A stretch of DNA of 43,252 bases, taken from positions 1 to 43,252 of the IMG/VR virus record IMGVR_UViG_3300012203_000036; one strand, given 5' to 3'. The stretch comes from a virus. The notes under the pieces are model-generated. The model saw nothing but the letters and a program-made list of their open reading frames with translations. It did not search any database and was not told the DNA's origin. How positions within the stretch are numbered: position 1 is the first letter of the stretch; the number at the start of each line of letters is the position of its first letter. Positions 28,884 to 38,644 of the stretch are shown here, piece by piece. A program made the position numbers and the translations under genes.

Positions 28884-29018
28884 ATGGTCTGGTGGATTTC
28901 ACATCACATGTTCACGATCTCGCTTTTACTTCTCATCTTTTTTTCTGGCGCGGGTGTCTTCCATCTGCACCGCCGATGGAAACATCGTCAATGGGTGAAG
29001 TCGCTGAGGAATCGATGA
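28884..29018 (+). CDS. 44-residue membrane protein between holin and endolysin
   Basis: ATG 28884 follows the holin stop by one base, and the stop (29016-29018) overlaps the endolysin start in ATGA form. The protein has an N-terminal transmembrane helix (MFTISLLLLIFFSGAGVFHL) and a strongly basic tail (HRRWKHRQWVKSLRNR). It was not found in longer-frame tables because of its length, but the coupling on both sides supports it. It may help lysis, for example as a spanin-like or regulator peptide. Confidence 0.55.
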   Translation: MVWWISHHMFTISLLLLIFFSGAGVFHLHRRWKHRQWVKSLRNR

Positions 29019-29464
29019 GAGCATCCTTCGATGCCGCTTTCACCGCTCTGGAATTGCACGAAGGCGGATACTCAAACAATCCCGCGGATCCTGGCGGCGA
29101 AACGATGTACGGCATCACCGCGCGCGTCGCACGTAAGCACGGATACGCCGGCGCGATGCGCGATCTCCCGCTCGATCTCGCGAAGTCGATCGCGAAGGCC
29201 GAGTATTGGGATTCTGTCGCCGGCGACGAGCTGCCCGACAAGCTCGACTTCACGGTGTTCGATGCCGCGTACAACTCAGGGCCGGAACGCGCCGAAAAAT
29301 GGCTCGGCCAGGCGCGGCAACCTGCGACTGATGACGTCGACAAGATCGTGATGCGATTCGACGCATATCGCCTGCTCTTTCTTGATTCGCTTCCTACCTG
29401 GCCGAGCTTTGGCCGCGGATGGGCTCGACGCATCGCGGAAAATCTCTTGCGCGCGGCCGCCTGA
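29015..29464 (+). CDS. Endolysin, GH108 lysozyme
   Basis: A 149-residue protein; ATG 29015 has GAGG at 5-nt spacing, so upstream in-frame starts are rejected. The N-terminal glycoside hydrolase 108 signature LELHEGGYSNNPADPGGET holds the catalytic Glu (residue 16), followed by MYGITARVARKHGY. The C-terminal half has the peptidoglycan-binding part typical of the family (LDFTVFDAAYNSGPERAEKW). It hydrolyses the peptidoglycan glycan backbone once the holin opens the membrane. No secretion signal, consistent with holin dependence. Confidence 0.9.
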   Translation: MRASFDAAFTALELHEGGYSNNPADPGGETMYGITARVARKHGYAGAMRDLPLDLAKSIAKAEYWDSVAGDELPDKLDFTVFDAAYNSGPERAEKWLGQARQPATDDVDKIVMRFDAYRLLFLDSLPTWPSFGRGWARRIAENLLRAAA

Positions 29465-29565: not shown

Positions 29566-30036
29566 ATGTCATTTCAAGATGATCTGATGCGAGCTGATGC
29601 GATCCGCGAAATTCGCGCGAGCGGCTGCACACTGCCAGGTGTCGCCGAGCTGATCGTCGACTTTCACGGCGCCGTGCATGTATTGACGAACGTGCCGAAG
29701 ATCCAGACACTCGGTGAAGAAGTCGCCGCATCCGATAGTGAGCAAGGCACGAAGATGCGCCAGCTCTTGTACGTGCAGGCAAAGGCAACGGGAACCGCTG
29801 CAAGCGAAGTGCTGATGACGAACAAAGATGAAACGAAGACTTCCACGCCGAGCGAATCGAAGGCCGCCGCCGCTGCCAGTGCCGGCGCGTCGACGGGATC
29901 CGCTTCGGACGCCGCGGCGGCTGTCGGGGCTTCCGACGAAGCTACCGCCGCGGCGGGAATTCCGGCGGAACCGAGCCCGGGCGCCGCCCCTGAAACTTCC
30001 GTCGCTCAAGGGGAATGGCAGGCGCAAGGATCCTGA
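29566..30036 (+). CDS. Hypothetical protein with disordered Ala/Gly-rich tail
   Basis: A 156-residue protein. The first 70 residues are a folded-looking part (LPGVAELIVDFHGAVHVLTN; KIQTLGEEVAASDS); the rest is Ala/Ser/Gly-rich with repeats of AAAASAGAST character, likely disordered. It is the last rightward gene before the terminator, after the lysis genes. Function unknown; there is no signal or membrane segment. Confidence 0.55.
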   Translation: MSFQDDLMRADAIREIRASGCTLPGVAELIVDFHGAVHVLTNVPKIQTLGEEVAASDSEQGTKMRQLLYVQAKATGTAASEVLMTNKDETKTSTPSESKAAAAASAGASTGSASDAAAAVGASDEATAAAGIPAEPSPGAAPETSVAQGEWQAQGS

Positions 30037-30059: not shown

Positions 30060-30110
30060 AAGCCCGCCGGACTTTCCAGTGCGCTCCACTGGAACCCCGG
30101 CGGGCTTTTC
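30060..30110. terminator. Strong hairpin terminator between converging gene blocks
   Basis: AAGCCCGCCGG (30060-30070) pairs with CCGGCGGGCTT (30097-30107); the enclosed bases form a second stem (TTCCAGTG with CACTGGAA). T-rich bases follow on the right and A-rich bases precede on the left, so it can stop transcription from both sides: late genes from the left, the leftward cluster from the right. Confidence 0.85.
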
Positions 30111-30131: not shown

Positions 30132-30311
30132 TTATTTCTCTTCGATGAATTCGATCTCGTGCCGGCCGAATCGCCAGGCATCGAATTCTTCATTTGTCAT
30201 TACAAGATTACCGGCTTTCCCGAGTGTACGTCCTTTGTTCCCGCTGAACACCCGCATGTGCGTGTGCCCGCCGATCCGCTGCCAATAGATTCGAATCGTC
30301 TTCTCGCTCAT
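30132..30311 (-). CDS. Small hypothetical protein at the end of the leftward cluster
   Basis: A 59-residue protein; ATG at 30311 (read leftward) has GGAAGGG before it and overlaps the previous gene's stop, so the longer frame to 30494 is rejected. Sequence features: TIRIYWQRIGGHTHMRVFSG, then KAGNLVMTNEEFDAWRFG. Compact, mixed alpha/beta, no membrane segment. Final gene before the terminator. Function unknown. Confidence 0.55.
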   Translation of the reverse strand: MSEKTIRIYWQRIGGHTHMRVFSGNKGRTLGKAGNLVMTNEEFDAWRFGRHEIEFIEEK

Positions 30312-30439
30312 TTTTTCCCTTCCAGCCAACGCCGCAAGTCTTCCGCCTTTCGTTTGGTCCACTGAATCAGAGCTTCGAGATTCCCACCTGCCCATACCAC
30401 AAACAAAACGCATAGAAGAATCCACGCGGCAACGAGCAC
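30308..30439 (-). CDS. 43-residue membrane protein
   Basis: Too short for usual cut-offs, but supported because its stop overlaps the next start in ATGA form. The GTG at 30439 lies three bases after the previous stop; a TTG at 30472 is an alternative start. The protein has one transmembrane helix (LVAAWILLCVLFVVWAGG) and a charged tail (TKRKAEDLRRWLEGKK). It may modify the host membrane; function unknown. Confidence 0.45.
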   Translation of the reverse strand: MLVAAWILLCVLFVVWAGGNLEALIQWTKRKAEDLRRWLEGKK

Positions 30440-30441
30440 TT

Positions 30442-30627
30442 TCAATTTCTCGCCAACGTATCGATTGTCCAACGCAAGAGCTGACTGACTTCAAAGATCA
30501 GCACGGCGATCCCGATCGACAGGAACCACGATTGAACCGGATGTTCAAGACACCATCGATCGAACCGTTTCAGTTGTTCCTGCCGGCGCAGATGCTCGGC
30601 ATGTTCTCGCCAGATGTCTTTCATCAT
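30442..30627 (-). CDS. Small membrane protein
   Basis: A 61-residue protein; ATG 30627 overlaps the previous stop (ATGA), supporting this start over the GTG at 30645. An N-terminal charged helix (DIWREHAEHLRRQEQLKRFD) precedes one transmembrane helix (QSWFLSIGIAVLIFEVSQLL). Function unknown. Confidence 0.5.
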   Translation of the reverse strand: MMKDIWREHAEHLRRQEQLKRFDRWCLEHPVQSWFLSIGIAVLIFEVSQLLRWTIDTLARN

Positions 30628-30836
30628 GCACCGTGATTCTGGCACATTGGATGATCAGCGATCGGATGCCAGGCGCCGCATGCCGCGCAAAGGAAGAAGA
30701 TGAATCCCGCGGTGAGCCCGCGATGCATCAGCGCGCATTCGGGATTCTTGCAAGTCGGCCGGCTGAAGAGTCCGAGAACTGTCGTGCCTTTCGCGTCTTC
30801 CGCGACAAACTGCCCGTCTTTGAGATAAGTGATCAT
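30624..30836 (-). CDS. Small zinc-ribbon-like membrane-associated protein
   Basis: A 70-residue protein coupled by ATGA on both sides. The Cys/His pattern TCKNPECALMHRGLTAG, then FLCAACGAWHPIADHPMCQ gives five Cys with several His, suggesting a zinc site around a short hydrophobic stretch (GLTAGFIFFLC). Function unknown. Confidence 0.5.
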   Translation of the reverse strand: MITYLKDGQFVAEDAKGTTVLGLFSRPTCKNPECALMHRGLTAGFIFFLCAACGAWHPIADHPMCQNHGA

Positions 30837-30955
30837 CGCTTACCGCCTTTCGGAGAAACCCATAAAGACAACAAAACACAGAGCTGCAGAAAGCCGAAGT
30901 ACAGAACCGATGGCAAGGCGATCAGGATGATGAGAAATGCAGCAAGTTTGATCAT
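30833..30955 (-). CDS. 40-residue membrane protein
   Basis: The gene starts at ATG 30955, which overlaps the previous stop, and its stop overlaps the next ATG. The protein is one hydrophobic helix (LAAFLIILIALPSVLYFGFL) with a following Cys and short basic tail (SPKGGKR). The double coupling is the main evidence. Function unknown. Confidence 0.5.
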   Translation of the reverse strand: MIKLAAFLIILIALPSVLYFGFLQLCVLLSLWVSPKGGKR

Positions 30956-31134
30956 TTTAGCACTTCCACTTCATCAGTTCTAAAAGTTCCGGCCGGCTTC
31001 GCATCCATCGGCACGCCGGGATCGTATCCGTTCAGGCGGATGAATTCGTGCAGCGCGCCGATCGCTGAATCCGCCCAGACAAGATACTTCTTCCATACGC
31101 CAGGATCGTATTTCACGGTGACGATGTAGTTCAC
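30952..31134 (-). CDS. Small hypothetical protein
   Basis: A 60-residue protein with GTG start (31134) overlapping the upstream stop and GGCGGTG before it. Pattern: NYIVTVKYDPGVWKKYLVWA, then ALHEFIRLNGYDPGVPM; a small mixed fold with no membrane or metal motif. Function unknown. Confidence 0.5.
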   Translation of the reverse strand: MNYIVTVKYDPGVWKKYLVWADSAIGALHEFIRLNGYDPGVPMDAKPAGTFRTDEVEVLK

Positions 31135-31580
31135 GATTCACCGCCTTTCATTGCTTTCTCTATCCGTTCTTTAATCGAAAAACTGTGCTGTACTTCAAAG
31201 GCATTGCGCCGTGCTTCCGCTGCGATCACTGCATCGCAGAGCTTGCTGTATTCTGCAAAATGTTCGGGATCGATCGTCCCTTCGAGCCGCCAACATTGAG
31301 CAACGCCTTTTTTCCCTTCCCATTTTACGAGGATGTTGTGATTCCCGATATGAATTCCAGTGCATTTGCCGGAACGAAGAACTCCATCTGAGCCATCCCA
31401 CTGAATGAATGGGATAGGTTCGATCTTATCGTTCTTTGTGACGCGCTCAAGTTTGTCGCGAAGAAGTTCGAGTGTCTTTGCTTCGATTTCCTGTTCGTTG
31501 TATTCGGCCGAGAAATCCCCGTTCGAGTCGACATCCACATCGAATTTTTTGCCGCGTATGGTGATAGTCGTGATCTTCAT
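31131..31580 (-). CDS. Hypothetical protein of the leftward cluster
   Basis: A 149-residue protein; ATG 31580 overlaps the previous stop, so the longer frame (to 31841) is rejected. The N-terminus is beta-like (MKITTITIRGKKFDVDVDSN), then a helix (ETLELLRDKLERVTKNDK-like) and a beta core (FIQWDGSDGVLRSGKCTGIH; NILVKWEGKKGVAQCWRLEG), ending in a helical basic tail. It may bind a nucleic acid or small ligand; family not recognised. Confidence 0.5.
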   Translation of the reverse strand: MKITTITIRGKKFDVDVDSNGDFSAEYNEQEIEAKTLELLRDKLERVTKNDKIEPIPFIQWDGSDGVLRSGKCTGIHIGNHNILVKWEGKKGVAQCWRLEGTIDPEHFAEYSKLCDAVIAAEARRNAFEVQHSFSIKERIEKAMKGGES

Positions 31581-31813
31581 GCCGGCACCGCCTTGTCGCG
31601 CAAGAAAGCCGTCGCACGCTTCCCGTAGATCTCTGTGATGTATTCTTGATAGGTTGCGAGCGATGCCGCTTGGCAGGATGGTGCCATACCGCTCTGTTTG
31701 ACACCTGTCACCATCGAAAGCCAAACAGCTTGCGGCAAGAGCCCTGCGAGTTTCGCGCGTTGAATCGTCGCGAAAGTTTCGGGGAATAGTCGTCGAGTAC
31801 GTTTCTTCTTCAT
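31577..31813 (-). CDS. Small basic hypothetical protein
   Basis: A 78-residue protein; ATG 31813 overlaps the previous stop. The start is basic (KKKRTRRLFPETFATIQRAK); the rest is helical (VTGVKQSGMAPSCQAASLAT; YQEYITEIYGKRATAFLRDK). Nucleic-acid binding is possible because of the basic N-terminus, not proven. Confidence 0.45.
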   Translation of the reverse strand: MKKKRTRRLFPETFATIQRAKLAGLLPQAVWLSMVTGVKQSGMAPSCQAASLATYQEYITEIYGKRATAFLRDKAVPA

Positions 31814-32025
31814 GCGTCGACTCCGATCTTCCGATCGGCAATCACCACAACGGATAGTTTGAAAGAGCCGATGTGCTTCCGGTGAAGTTTCGGATGCTTG
31901 AGCAGATCGCGAAGTGCGTCGCAAGTCGCCGATCGAAGAGTCGATCCGGATCCGCGGCCGTTGACGGTGACATGCCCGGGCAAGGCGTCGAACTCATGCC
32001 CGATGATGTTCACGACTTTTACCAT
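31810..32025 (-). CDS. Small hypothetical protein
   Basis: A 71-residue protein; ATG 32025 shares a base with the upstream stop (TAATG). Pattern MVKVVNIIGHEFDALPGHVT, then RSATCDALRDLLKHPKLHRK and a closing strand SFKLSVVVIADRK; a compact alpha/beta fold is likely. Function unknown. Confidence 0.45.
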   Translation of the reverse strand: MVKVVNIIGHEFDALPGHVTVNGRGSGSTLRSATCDALRDLLKHPKLHRKHIGSFKLSVVVIADRKIGVDA

Positions 32026-32123
32026 TACGGGCGCCTTTCATGAATGAGAAACCAAAGTCTTTCGCCGATCAGGAATCCGCCGCCGACTGCGAACATGGTG
32101 AACAACGGAAACAGCTTGAGCAT
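32025..32123 (-). CDS. 32-residue membrane peptide
   Basis: ATG 32123 has AGGGAG upstream (read leftward) and the stop is coupled to the next start. The peptide is one hydrophobic helix (LFPLFTMFAVGGGFLIGERL) with a charged tail (HERRP). It lies just after the tandem hairpins. Function unknown. Confidence 0.45.
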   Translation of the reverse strand: MLKLFPLFTMFAVGGGFLIGERLWFLIHERRP

Positions 32124-32197: not shown

Positions 32198-33280
32198 CTA
32201 AGCTGCGATCTTTTCCCATTGCTCGGGCGCGAGTTCAAGGATCTCGCCGCCGATGCGTTCCATCGTGGTAGCGTCTTCGTACGATTCGACGGATTGGCAA
32301 AACTCCGTCACCGCGTTCGACAAACCCCACTGCGACAGATCGCCGTTCGAGAGAAGCTTCATCAGGATCCCGTCGCCGTATGCTTCGGGAAGCTGATTCA
32401 CTTCGACGATGTGCTCGACGATCTCTTTCGGCTTGACGATCTTGCGATCGGCGGTGAGCGTCAATCCGCGCAGATAATCATTGAACTTGTCGCCGTCGAA
32501 CGATGCCTTCACGACGTCGCGCATTTTCAGCATCAGCGCTTTGTCGTCAGCCTGGCGAGTCGCATCCGCGAAAACTTCATACGCGGCTTCGAGTTCGGCG
32601 CCGGCTTTCCCGACGTGATACTTGCGCATCGCTGAATCCGGCCGGATCGCGCCGTTCGTGCATGACAGGATGAAAAGGAATTGTTCGACGCGGAAGGAAT
32701 GCAGCCCGACTTCCGAATTCGAGATCACGATCCCGGCTTGCACGGTTTCACCGACGACGGTGCCGGCGATGCGTTCGGAAACTGCCTTGATGTAGAGACG
32801 AGTTTCAGAAACGTCGGCGCTCTCGACGCGAAGCCCGAGTTCGGATCCGCGTTCAAGGATCACCGGCAAGACAGCTTCGGCGACGGTAATGTTATCGATC
32901 ATGCGGTACCGATTCGAAAGGAAAGCGCGCGCACGGCCGTCGAGTGTGCGCACGAGCCGCGTTTCCTTTTCTTGTGCGAGCCAATGATTGACGTTTGTCG
33001 TCAGCAGTTCGGGCGATTCCTGGCGCATCCGATCGTAATACTTCGCGGGAATCCCGGTGTGCTGGCCGATCTGATTGTGAGCAACTTCGGAGATCTGAAA
33101 CGTGCCGGCGTGATCGCCGACGACGCCGACGTCGAGAAGCACATCGTTCGGCGTGTTATTCTCCGCATCGACTTCGACGCGCATTCCCATGCGTTGAGTC
33201 GGAACTAGAAAATCTCGCTTCGTCTTCGCCTGCCGGGTGATTTCTGCTGCCATTCCTTCGAGTGTCATTCCGCTTTTCAT
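32198..33280 (-). CDS. DUF932 family protein (phage/plasmid TIGR03299 type)
   Basis: A 360-residue protein; ATG 33280 has AGGGAG before it, so the frame extension to 33361 is rejected. The features of the DUF932 family are present: an N-terminal VPTQRMGMRVEVDAENN region, the FQISEVAHNQIGQHTGIPAK, YYDRM pattern, a central RVEQFLFILSCTNGAIRPDS segment, and helical tail. The family occurs in phages and plasmids, often near RecT; its role is not settled. It is the first and largest gene of the leftward cluster, from the promoter at 33333-33361. Confidence 0.85.
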   Translation of the reverse strand: MKSGMTLEGMAAEITRQAKTKRDFLVPTQRMGMRVEVDAENNTPNDVLLDVGVVGDHAGTFQISEVAHNQIGQHTGIPAKYYDRMRQESPELLTTNVNHWLAQEKETRLVRTLDGRARAFLSNRYRMIDNITVAEAVLPVILERGSELGLRVESADVSETRLYIKAVSERIAGTVVGETVQAGIVISNSEVGLHSFRVEQFLFILSCTNGAIRPDSAMRKYHVGKAGAELEAAYEVFADATRQADDKALMLKMRDVVKASFDGDKFNDYLRGLTLTADRKIVKPKEIVEHIVEVNQLPEAYGDGILMKLLSNGDLSQWGLSNAVTEFCQSVESYEDATTMERIGGEILELAPEQWEKIAA

Positions 33281-33332: not shown

Positions 33333-33361
33333 AGTGTCTCAGAAACGCCATGCTTTGTCAA
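33333..33361 (-). promoter_or_regulatory. Leftward promoter for the DUF932 cluster
   Basis: Read leftward: -35 TTGACA (33361-33356), 17-bp spacer, -10 GACACT (33338-33333, three of six matches). The predicted start lies about 46 bases before the DUF932 start codon. The -35 is perfect, the -10 weak. Confidence 0.6.
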
Positions 33362-33374
33362 GACCTATTGACAA
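33355..33374. promoter_or_regulatory. Operator-like inverted repeat between the divergent promoters
   Basis: TTGTCA (33355-33360) and TGACAA (33369-33374) are exact inverted copies separated by 8 bases; they hold both -35 elements. A repressor bound here, possibly the ribbon-helix-helix protein encoded next door, would block both promoters together. Confidence 0.5.
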
Positions 33375-33395
33375 ATATAAACTCCCTGGTAGACT
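33368..33395 (+). promoter_or_regulatory. Rightward early promoter
   Basis: -35 TTGACA (33368-33373), 16-bp spacer, -10 TAGACT (33390-33395, four of six matches). It is about 22 bases upstream of the repressor-type gene at 33418, which has GGGAGGAA as ribosome site. Confidence 0.75.
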
Positions 33396-33417: not shown

Positions 33418-33585
33418 ATGCCAAAAGAACCTACTCAGGTGATCTATGTTCGACTGCCGCGAAGCATCGTGAAGAAACTAAAGGACGCCGCCGATCAGCA
33501 ACGACGCACGATGGCCGCGCAGATCGAGCTTGTTCTTTCCGACTGGATCGAAGTCGCTTTCGCGAATGAGAGAGTCAACAAATGA
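33418..33585 (+). CDS. Ribbon-helix-helix (Arc-type) DNA-binding protein
   Basis: A 55-residue protein starting at ATG 33418; the upstream frame extension would run through the promoter. TQVIYVRLPRSIVKKLKDAA is the typical beta-strand plus first helix of Arc-type dimers, followed by DQQRRTMAAQIELVLSDWIE as the second helix. Such dimers insert a paired beta-ribbon in the major groove and repress. It is the first gene after the divergent promoters, so it is the best candidate to control them. Its stop overlaps the next start. Confidence 0.85.
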   Translation: MPKEPTQVIYVRLPRSIVKKLKDAADQQRRTMAAQIELVLSDWIEVAFANERVNK

Positions 33586-34146: not shown

Positions 34147-35259
34147 ATGCCTGAACAGAAAAACGATCTCGCGATCATTCGTCAGATCGATGCACCGGAT
34201 TTCAAAATACAGCTCGAACGCGCACTTCCGAACGCCGCGGTGTCGGGATTGTCGGCCGATCGCATGGTGCGGCTTGCGATCACCATGCTTCGGCGGAATG
34301 AGGCTTTGCAGAAATGCACGCCGCTCTCTGTGATGTCATGCGTCGTCGAGATCGCGCAGCTCGGGCTCGAACCTGAAGGCGTGCTCGGGCACGCGTACAT
34401 GGTGCCATTCGCTGATCAATGCACGCTGATCGTCGGATATCGCGGCTTCATGCACCTGATGTATCAGTCCGGAGTCGTGACGGAAGTCTCGGCCGAGATC
34501 GTGCGGAAGGGCGACAAGTTTCAGCGCGTGCTCGGCACCGAACGTCAGCTCGTGCATATGCCCGAACCGATTCCCGAGAAAGATGACGAAAAAAACTGGA
34601 TCGGAGCTTACGCCGTCGCGCGGCTCCTGAACAATTCGATGGCGTTCGAATATCTCGAAAAGGTGAAGATCTACCAGGCACGCGCTCGATCCCGCGGCTA
34701 TCAAAAGCATTTGAAAGAAGGCAAGTCGACGCCGTGGGTGACGGATCCCGAAGAGATGTGGAAGAAGACGCCGATCCGCCGGCTTGCGAAACGGATGCCG
34801 ACGTCGACATCAGACAAACGGCCGATGCTTCTGCGCGCGGTGATGCTCGATGAGTACAGCGAGAAGCCCGGGCTTCTTCTGCCGACGCTGCACGGCTTCG
34901 ATGTCAATCCGGATGGACCCACAGGGCCGGAACAGAACGGCGAGCCGATCACGCCGACGATCGAAGTTTCTAGCGAAGACGTAAAGAAACCCGCGGCCGT
35001 AAAAAAATCGGCAGTAAAGTCGCCGCCGAATCCAGCGGTACCGCGCGCCAATCTGAAAGGCGAACCGGCAAAGATCGACGATCCCCTGATCAACTCGACA
35101 GAACAAACACAGATCTATAACAAGGCTGCCGCGAACAACTGGAAAATCCCCGACGACGTGAAGAAGTACTTGCAAAAGCGCTACAAAGTCGATACTGTCA
35201 AGGCCGTTCGACGCTCTTGGCTTCCAGAAATTTTACAAACTCTTGAATCAGGGACGTGA
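34147..35259 (+). CDS. recT: RecT-type single-strand annealing protein
   Basis: A 370-residue protein; ATG 34147 with GAAGGGGAAG before it. The RecT core covers residues 20-230: LSADRMVRLAITMLRRNEAL, CTPLSVMSCVVEIAQLGLEP, CTLIVGYRGFMHLMYQSGVV and WVTDPEEMWKKTPIRRLAKR are hallmark segments. The C-terminal 60 residues (NKAAANNWKIPDDVKKYLQK) look like an accessory helical domain often found at the end of such proteins. It anneals complementary single strands during recombination and genome circularisation, using ends made by the nuclease next door. Confidence 0.92.
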   Translation: MPEQKNDLAIIRQIDAPDFKIQLERALPNAAVSGLSADRMVRLAITMLRRNEALQKCTPLSVMSCVVEIAQLGLEPEGVLGHAYMVPFADQCTLIVGYRGFMHLMYQSGVVTEVSAEIVRKGDKFQRVLGTERQLVHMPEPIPEKDDEKNWIGAYAVARLLNNSMAFEYLEKVKIYQARARSRGYQKHLKEGKSTPWVTDPEEMWKKTPIRRLAKRMPTSTSDKRPMLLRAVMLDEYSEKPGLLLPTLHGFDVNPDGPTGPEQNGEPITPTIEVSSEDVKKPAAVKKSAVKSPPNPAVPRANLKGEPAKIDDPLINSTEQTQIYNKAAANNWKIPDDVKKYLQKRYKVDTVKAVRRSWLPEILQTLESGT

Positions 35260-36907: not shown

Positions 36908-37481
36908 TGTCGAAGTACGGCCGAAGGAAGCTATCTTCTCCGAAGCCGCTTCCGAACTCGGGCCCGAACACATCGAAGAACCGAAGCAAGCTGAACTTCT
37001 CGCGATGCCGGAAGAAGCTACGCGGCCCGTTGCGGTGCAGAACGGCCGGATGCTGGCGACATATGTCGGACTCGGGCTCGAACGCGACAAGAACAACGAC
37101 AAGTTAGTGCATCTCGATTTCTCTTTCACACTCGAAGATGCGCACAACGGTTTCATTCCGAAGAAAGTCAAGGAAGCTTGGACGTTCCTTAAAGACTCCG
37201 ACAATAAACTGATCTGGATCAAGGGAATTCCGCCGATCACTCTCGGAGTTTTCATGGATCCGAAAGTGAAGAAACCCGAACTTCATCTGATCGGCGCGGA
37301 ATTCATGAAAGCGGTAATTCAGATCGTCGAAGAAACGGGCAAGGGAAAGATCGTCATGGTGACGCGGTTCGCATTCCGCGTTCGGGCATCACGACATGCG
37401 AGCGTGATGGATTTCGCCGCCTGGCGCGACGGCGAATCGTTTTGGATCGTGATGCCGCAAACTCAGGAAGCACTCGAATGA
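36807..37481 (+). CDS. Hypothetical protein of the recombination block
   Basis: A 224-residue protein with GGGAG before ATG 36807. An acidic disordered N-terminus (about 75 residues) precedes a beta-rich domain (GRMLATYVGLGLERDKNNDK; LVHLDFSFTLEDAHNGFIPK; RFAFRVRASRHASVMDFAAW). It is coupled downstream to the next gene. No motif; it may be a DNA-metabolism helper by position. Confidence 0.55.
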   Translation: MPKKAEKETSSITSEKPTSARLLANRPLDPETDDVEVRPKEAIFSEAASELGPEHIEEPKQAELLAMPEEATRPVAVQNGRMLATYVGLGLERDKNNDKLVHLDFSFTLEDAHNGFIPKKVKEAWTFLKDSDNKLIWIKGIPPITLGVFMDPKVKKPELHLIGAEFMKAVIQIVEETGKGKIVMVTRFAFRVRASRHASVMDFAAWRDGESFWIVMPQTQEALE

Positions 37482-37849
37482 GCGATACCAAGATTAAGGA
37501 ACGACTCACTGCGGCGATCGATATTGTGCTGCAGGAAGGCATCTCGAAAGAGCCCATCGCGTCGCGCTTTCTCGCCGAAAGAATCGTTCTGCTCATCAGT
37601 AACTTTGTGAAGGAAAATGCGCCGGGGGCGACGGGAAACTTCCCCGATGGCCAATCCGAAGCGACAGATCAGGGGGAAGTCAAGATGCTTGTCTCGCACG
37701 ATGACAATCTTGTGCGGATCGAACTCGGGAAACCTGTCGCATGGTTTGCGATGCCGAAGTCACAAGCTCTGACGTTCGCTTTCGTCATCTTGAATCATTG
37801 CGGCGTCGAGATCCAGCAGCACGATCTGACAAAGGAGAAACCGTCATGA
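37478..37849 (+). CDS. Small hypothetical protein
   Basis: A 123-residue protein; ATG 37478 overlaps the previous stop. Helical start (ERLTAAIDIVLQEGISKEPI; ASRFLAERIVLLISNFVKEN), then a Gly/Pro linker and a beta-rich end (NLVRIELGKPVAWFAMPKSQ). The first part resembles small helical phage proteins. Function unknown. Confidence 0.5.
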   Translation: MSDTKIKERLTAAIDIVLQEGISKEPIASRFLAERIVLLISNFVKENAPGATGNFPDGQSEATDQGEVKMLVSHDDNLVRIELGKPVAWFAMPKSQALTFAFVILNHCGVEIQQHDLTKEKPS

Positions 37850-38181
37850 AAGATCGAACGCTGTGGCATCAATCCGGCGTGAACAAAAACGGCGAACCGT
37901 TCATTCAGCTTCTGGTCGACGACGAAGTAATCTGTCAGTTGACTCCCGAAGAAGCCCGCGATCATGCGAAGAACATGCTCGAAGCGACGGAAGCAAGCGA
38001 GCAGGATGCTTTCATGCTCTCGTTCTTTCGGGATAAGCTCGGCTCTGATGCACAAGCGGCGATGCGAATAATCGTAGAGTTTAGGAAATGGCGAGAAGCT
38101 CGCGGAAAGAAAGGGCCGGTTTCAGACGCCAGGGAATTTGTCAGGACCGACAAGCATGAGAAACCGGGAGCTGCATCATGA
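37846..38181 (+). CDS. Small hypothetical protein
   Basis: A 111-residue protein; ATG 37846 overlaps the previous stop, so the longer frame from 37741 is rejected. A short beta start (PFIQLLVDDEVICQLTPEEA) leads to a charged helical region (FMLSFFRDKLGSDAQAAMRI). Function unknown. Confidence 0.5.
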   Translation: MKDRTLWHQSGVNKNGEPFIQLLVDDEVICQLTPEEARDHAKNMLEATEASEQDAFMLSFFRDKLGSDAQAAMRIIVEFRKWREARGKKGPVSDAREFVRTDKHEKPGAAS

Positions 38182-38441
38182 TCGAGCAGATCATCATCGT
38201 TTCCGGCGATCCTGGCGGCGTATATATATGTATCACTGATGCCAGCCGGCCGGATCCAGCACACGCATGGAGCCGCGCCGCCAGTCACATCTTCCGGTTC
38301 AAGGATCTCAACTATTTCACCGCGATCGAGTCGGCAACGATGTGCCGGCACATGGTCGAAGCAATCCTGAAGATTCCGCGGCGGCCGCGGGGAATGCCCG
38401 TCGCTTGGGGATGGGGCAAAGGCTGGCCGGGATGCCGCTAG
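38178..38441 (+). CDS. Small hypothetical protein
   Basis: An 87-residue protein, ATGA-coupled. It begins as a beta-alpha unit (QIIIVSGDPGGVYICITDAS), then an aromatic helix (HIFRFKDLNYFTAIESATMC) and a Gly/Trp/Pro-rich tail (PVAWGWGKGWPGC). Overlaps the next gene by 10 bp. Function unknown. Confidence 0.5.
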   Translation: MIEQIIIVSGDPGGVYICITDASRPDPAHAWSRAASHIFRFKDLNYFTAIESATMCRHMVEAILKIPRRPRGMPVAWGWGKGWPGCR

Positions 38442-38644
38442 TCATAGAGCCCGAGAAGTGCCGCGTGTGCGGATGCACAGAATTGAATCCTTGCAAACTC
38501 GGCGATATCGAGGGCGATGGAAGCTATGAATGCTGCACTTGGCTAGACTTCGATCACACACTTTGCACGAATCCGAAGTGCATCGCGGCCGTTCCACTGT
38601 CGGAGCTGCTAGAGATGCCAATCTTGAGAGGAGCGATCACGTGA
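38432..38644 (+). CDS. Small Cys-rich zinc-binding-type protein
   Basis: A 70-residue protein starting at ATG 38432. Cys at KCRVCGC, NPCKLGD, ECCTWLD, TLCTNPKCIA suggest a zinc site or two. The pattern CRVCGCTELNPC resembles small phage Zn-binding proteins. Function unknown. Overlaps the next gene by 4 bp (GTGA). Confidence 0.55.
   Translation: MPLVIEPEKCRVCGCTELNPCKLGDIEGDGSYECCTWLDFDHTLCTNPKCIAAVPLSELLEMPILRGAIT

Follow-up and report, generated by a model that had tools for sequence, protein, structure and literature searches.

Genome layout and the leftward block

The window analysed here, 43,252 nt in length, is an entire IMG/VR virus record. Its genes form two arms that run rightward, one structural, with terminase, major head protein, endolysin and several unnamed genes, and one for recombination and replication, with genes for a ribbon-helix-helix (RHH) protein, RecT, an exonuclease, replication initiation and RusA; between the two lies one leftward block, composed of a DUF932 gene and ten tiny genes, designated g1 to g10. 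The features of the locus are as follows.

28991-29464, plus strand: endolysin gene, on the lysis side that the cassette locus borders
30060-30107: strong 48-nt hairpin closing the chain, folding on both strands
30132-30311, minus strand: g10, 59 aa, no family
30308-30445, minus strand: g9, 45 aa, TTG start (or GTG 6 nt on), single membrane segment
30442-30627, minus strand: g8, 61 aa, starting with ATGATG, N-terminal half charged and one membrane segment, relative at the corresponding place in contig G001
30624-30836, minus strand: g7, 70 aa, Cys-rich (CxxxxC...CxxC)
30833-30955, minus strand: g6, 40 aa, single membrane segment
30952-31134, minus strand: g5, 60 aa, GTG start, with a relative (KYDPGV...GYxPGVP) in contig L062, in its syntenic cassette
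31131-31580, minus strand: g4, 149 aa, no family
31577-31813, minus strand: g3, 78 aa, basic (net +9), no family
31810-32025, minus strand: g2, 71 aa, no family
32025-32123, minus strand: g1, 32 aa, single membrane segment
32124-32197, minus strand: 74-nt gap between the DUF932 gene and g1, with two possible RNA stem-loops (GCTGCCC/GGGCAGC and GAGCCG/CGGCTC)
32198-33280, minus strand: DUF932 gene, 360 aa, first of the apparent leftward operon (Pfam PF06067, E 1.5e-7; phrog_1362, E 2e-45)
33333-33361, minus strand: promoter-like site of the leftward operon, TTGACA-N17-GACACT (9/12 match)
33354-33375: palindrome TTTGTCAA-N6-TTGACAAA in the 137-nt divergent intergenic region
33418-33585, plus strand: divergent RHH gene (Arc-like match, under the Pfam cut-off), first of the rightward operon that includes RecT
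34147-35259, plus strand: RecT gene, in the operon headed by the RHH gene

Both the DUF932 gene, which lies ahead of the chain on the same strand, and the hairpin at the chain's end had been overlooked in the original prediction. The last rightward gene before the hairpin (29566-30036, plus strand) encodes a short N-terminal domain followed by a long Ala/Pro/Ser-rich tail; it belongs to no family, but G001 has a relative (45%) and G002 a gene of similar appearance. Downstream of RecT in the rightward arm, small genes with ATGA overlaps form another run (37478-38644, plus strand).

Organisation of the ten-gene chain

The ten ORFs, of 32 to 149 codons, follow one another head to tail on the minus strand over 1992 nt (30132-32123), and the coordinates, count, sizes and overlaps of the original prediction all hold. 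Stop-start overlaps of 4 or 1 nt occur at nine of nine junctions, namely TAATG at g1/g2, GTGA at g4/g5, TTGA at g8/g9 and ATGA at g2/g3, g3/g4, g5/g6, g6/g7, g7/g8 and g9/g10; that at g8/g9 needs the TTG start of g9, the alternative GTG 6 nt further on giving no overlap. Shine-Dalgarno-like matches are found upstream of most of the starts. None of 3000 dinucleotide shuffles of the region equalled the ten-ORF chain (longest chain of 8, usually 2 or 3), and the antisense strand gave 2 links at most. With ATG and GTG starts only, 8 ORFs are linked versus 6 or fewer in shuffles, while a looser test on the whole 43 kb (60 shuffles) gave chains of no more than 8.

Elsewhere in the window, same-strand neighbours overlap by 4 or 1 nt in 6 of 34 cases in the left arm and 5 of 17 in the right arm, and long runs of such overlaps also occur in the distant relative G018, indicating that this overlap style is normal for the phage group and that the chain is notable in length only. 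G018 also has a trio of tiny leftward genes with 4-nt overlaps (39, 46 and 29 codons; L059, 2615-2957, minus strand), two encoding membrane-type peptides, which sits within rightward late genes.

Membrane segments were assigned where the 19-residue hydropathy peak was above 1.6. One segment each was found in g1, g6, g8 and g9, supporting the four single-pass membrane peptides proposed earlier, and g7 is borderline. Codon scoring was weak for membrane peptides, g6 being uncalled and g9 called in part only. To the eye, g7 looks like a zinc-ribbon-like protein that may bind zinc; the fold predicted for g4 from its single sequence was unusable (mean pLDDT 42).

Overlaps of -4 and -1 give strong reinitiation in the bacteria and archaea tested (PMC10666635, PMC6728339). 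The chain is like the termination-reinitiation gene pairs of these studies in its 4-nt and 1-nt overlaps and in the start signals before most genes, but it differs in having nine consecutive junctions of tiny genes instead of single pairs, and coupling along it is putative. Ribosomes ending one gene would begin again at the next gene's start codon, which overlaps the stop, and the ten peptides would thus be made together and in related amounts.

Putative control region and ends of the leftward operon

The chain is the distal part of one apparent leftward operon headed by the DUF932 gene, a clear member of the DUF932 genes of phages and plasmids. The predicted transcript would start in a control region common to the RHH-RecT operon, carry the DUF932 gene and then the ten tiny genes, and stop at the hairpin at 30060-30107. 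The pair of stem-loops in the gap ahead of g1 is weak (z = -2.1) and is a possible processing or attenuation site; the second lies directly before the Shine-Dalgarno site of g1.

The match of the promoter-like site is not significant alone (84 of 1000 shuffles as good), as is mostly the case for single promoter scores; TTGACA or TTGACG occurs at the corresponding place in G001, G002, G008 and L062. The palindrome, for which 46 of 3000 shuffles were as good, has halves that correspond to two outward-facing TTGACA (-35-like) boxes, and may be a promoter pair and also an operator for the RHH protein. Control by an Arc-like repressor would agree with a palindrome beside an RHH gene, but the RHH match (Pfam E 0.0016) is under the Pfam cut-off. 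The repressor-type operator earlier placed next to the chain is thus present as a palindrome but is not adjacent, being 1.2 kb upstream with the DUF932 gene in between, and coincides with the -35 boxes.

At the other end, an 86-nt stretch containing the hairpin folds with -44.7 and -42.7 kcal/mol on the two strands (z about -5), and the T-rich tail is better on the plus strand. This hairpin is probably a terminator acting in both directions, where the late and the leftward genes converge. An Rfam search gave no match.

The chain is divergent from the RecT, exonuclease and replication genes, and from layout alone the leftward operon would be expressed early. Alternatively, the membrane peptides could serve in lysis or superinfection exclusion and not in host take-over, which would suit the four single-pass peptides and a locus bordering the endolysin side. 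We consider this improbable, as transcription is opposite to that of the late genes and lies beyond the terminator-like hairpin, and as the endolysin gene already has beside it small genes of the late region (27658 and 28191) whose products are hydrophobic over an N-terminal stretch.

Same place, different content in relatives

Relatives were gathered with the major head protein (30 contigs) and with the RecT protein, which gave one more useful contig (L062). In six contigs the corresponding place is occupied by a block of tiny genes that points away from the RecT operon. The locus lies between lysis-side genes and the divergent RHH-RecT operon in the window, G001 and G002, and beside a divergent RecT operon in G008, G009, G017 and L062. 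The cassette of G002 has six genes with 5/5 junctions overlapping, and a count over the cassettes of five relatives gives about 26 of 39 junctions with -4 or -1 overlaps. A terminator-like hairpin also follows the cassette in G001 and G002. Membrane-type peptides of 32-36 aa recur in G002, G008 and G017, and the families common to relatives comprise a CxC..CKH protein in five and a CERCGYWPCVCGD-type protein in three. The DUF932 gene was found in none of the six relatives' cassettes.

Cassette content, in turn, changes from one relative to the next. G001 is the closest relative by capsid protein (94% identical) and its cassette is 0.8 kb in length, with three called genes and one junction broken by an in-frame stop; the only gene that this cassette shares with that of the window is g8 (35% identity, 0/5000 shuffles as good), which indicates that the cassette turns over far faster than its surroundings. 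In this G001 cassette, a 30-codon ORF (L041, 11392-11070, minus strand) stops at TAA and its frame continues past it as a pentapeptide-repeat-like stretch (ANLEGANLRGANLEGAYLRGA), suggesting that the gene is either broken by this in-frame stop or translated through it. A counterpart of g5 occurs in L062 (42% identity, 0/5000 shuffles as good), and the eight other genes have no recognisable relative in the cassettes compared.

Alignment scans with g5 and g8 yielded no new contig, and coding support for the other eight genes therefore comes from overlaps, start signals and architecture; the threshold of the g8 scan was one at which the match in G001 did not reappear, and shuffles and BLASTP were therefore applied. 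Searching phage and plasmid records with the DNA of the region gave no match, nor did a RecT search of genome contigs or a search of viral contigs made directly with g4. Two candidates were set aside: a weak tblastn match of g4 in Streptomyces phages (E 0.02), the only match of the ten proteins in phages, and a match of g2 in L013 (E about 0.001) that lies outside the cassette region.

Loss of the overlapping frames in relatives had been named as an outcome that would speak against the chain; the relatives mostly lack these exact genes but do have the chain architecture. That the region is decaying or non-functional DNA with frames overlapping by chance would agree with short ORFs and with the little sequence conservation of most genes. 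This is highly improbable given the shuffle results, the start signals, relatives of g5 and g8 beyond shuffles and an architecture repeated in six relatives.

Predicted function of the cassette

No chain gene matched a known defence, counter-defence or toxin family above curated cut-off in PADLOC, NCBIfam, Pfam and PHROGs, some of these searches covering only part of the ten genes. Weak Pfam matches to Promethin, Melittin, VMA21 and zf-DNL did not reach cut-offs and are probably due to membrane or Cys composition. In L062, the last link of the tiny-gene chain is a C5 cytosine DNA methyltransferase (7313-6126, minus strand; PF00145, E 2e-14).

Small size is typical of inhibitors. A counter-defence island, in which several peptides would inhibit host restriction, CRISPR or abortive systems, would also fit the variable content at a fixed and probably early locus and the L062 methyltransferase; it is nevertheless a doubtful reading, as the genes tested gave no significant match in the four collections. 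As for an anti-CRISPR/aca-type locus, the chain contains neither a helix-turn-helix (HTH) aca-like gene nor a significant match to an inhibitor.

Proven counter-defence genes have come from variable regions of phages (PMC12373910), which together with the L062 methyltransferase makes a host-directed reading reasonable; small proteins of phages also serve many other functions (PMC11323111). An accessory, host-directed cassette is partly supported by position, by exchange of content among relatives and by the methyltransferase. The host take-over or anti-defence role first proposed for the chain thus agrees with position and variability, with no matching family among those searched, and its specific anti-defence part stays hypothetical because no known inhibitor or toxin was matched. 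Only tentatively can the chain be read as co-translated host-take-over or counter-defence peptides, mostly of undescribed families and including tiny membrane proteins repeatedly acquired at the same spot by the lineage.

The best explanation, to which we give a probability of ca. 0.72, is that a tailed phage has here an accessory cassette open to exchange, with one leftward coupled transcript, early host-directed products and gene-by-gene gain and loss. The products (membrane peptides, small Cys-rich and basic proteins) would act early on the host, and the tiny genes would be gained and lost largely independently of one another.

Overall, the ten-gene chain is a familiar, well-known kind of hypervariable, swappable phage accessory cassette. 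It is like the hypervariable accessory regions of tailed phages, whose accessory genes were screened in PMC12373910, in its fixed position flanked by core genes and in its small genes, exchanged among relatives and mostly without assigned function, but differs from them in the overlap at every junction and in belonging to a phage group that was found as environmental contigs only. The locus offers a bounded promoter-to-terminator site in an uncultured phage lineage for the systematic collection of new small host-directed genes, among them peptides shorter than 45 codons, which gene callers pass over, and its long run of overlaps would offer a handy natural system for testing the reach of translational coupling along a message.
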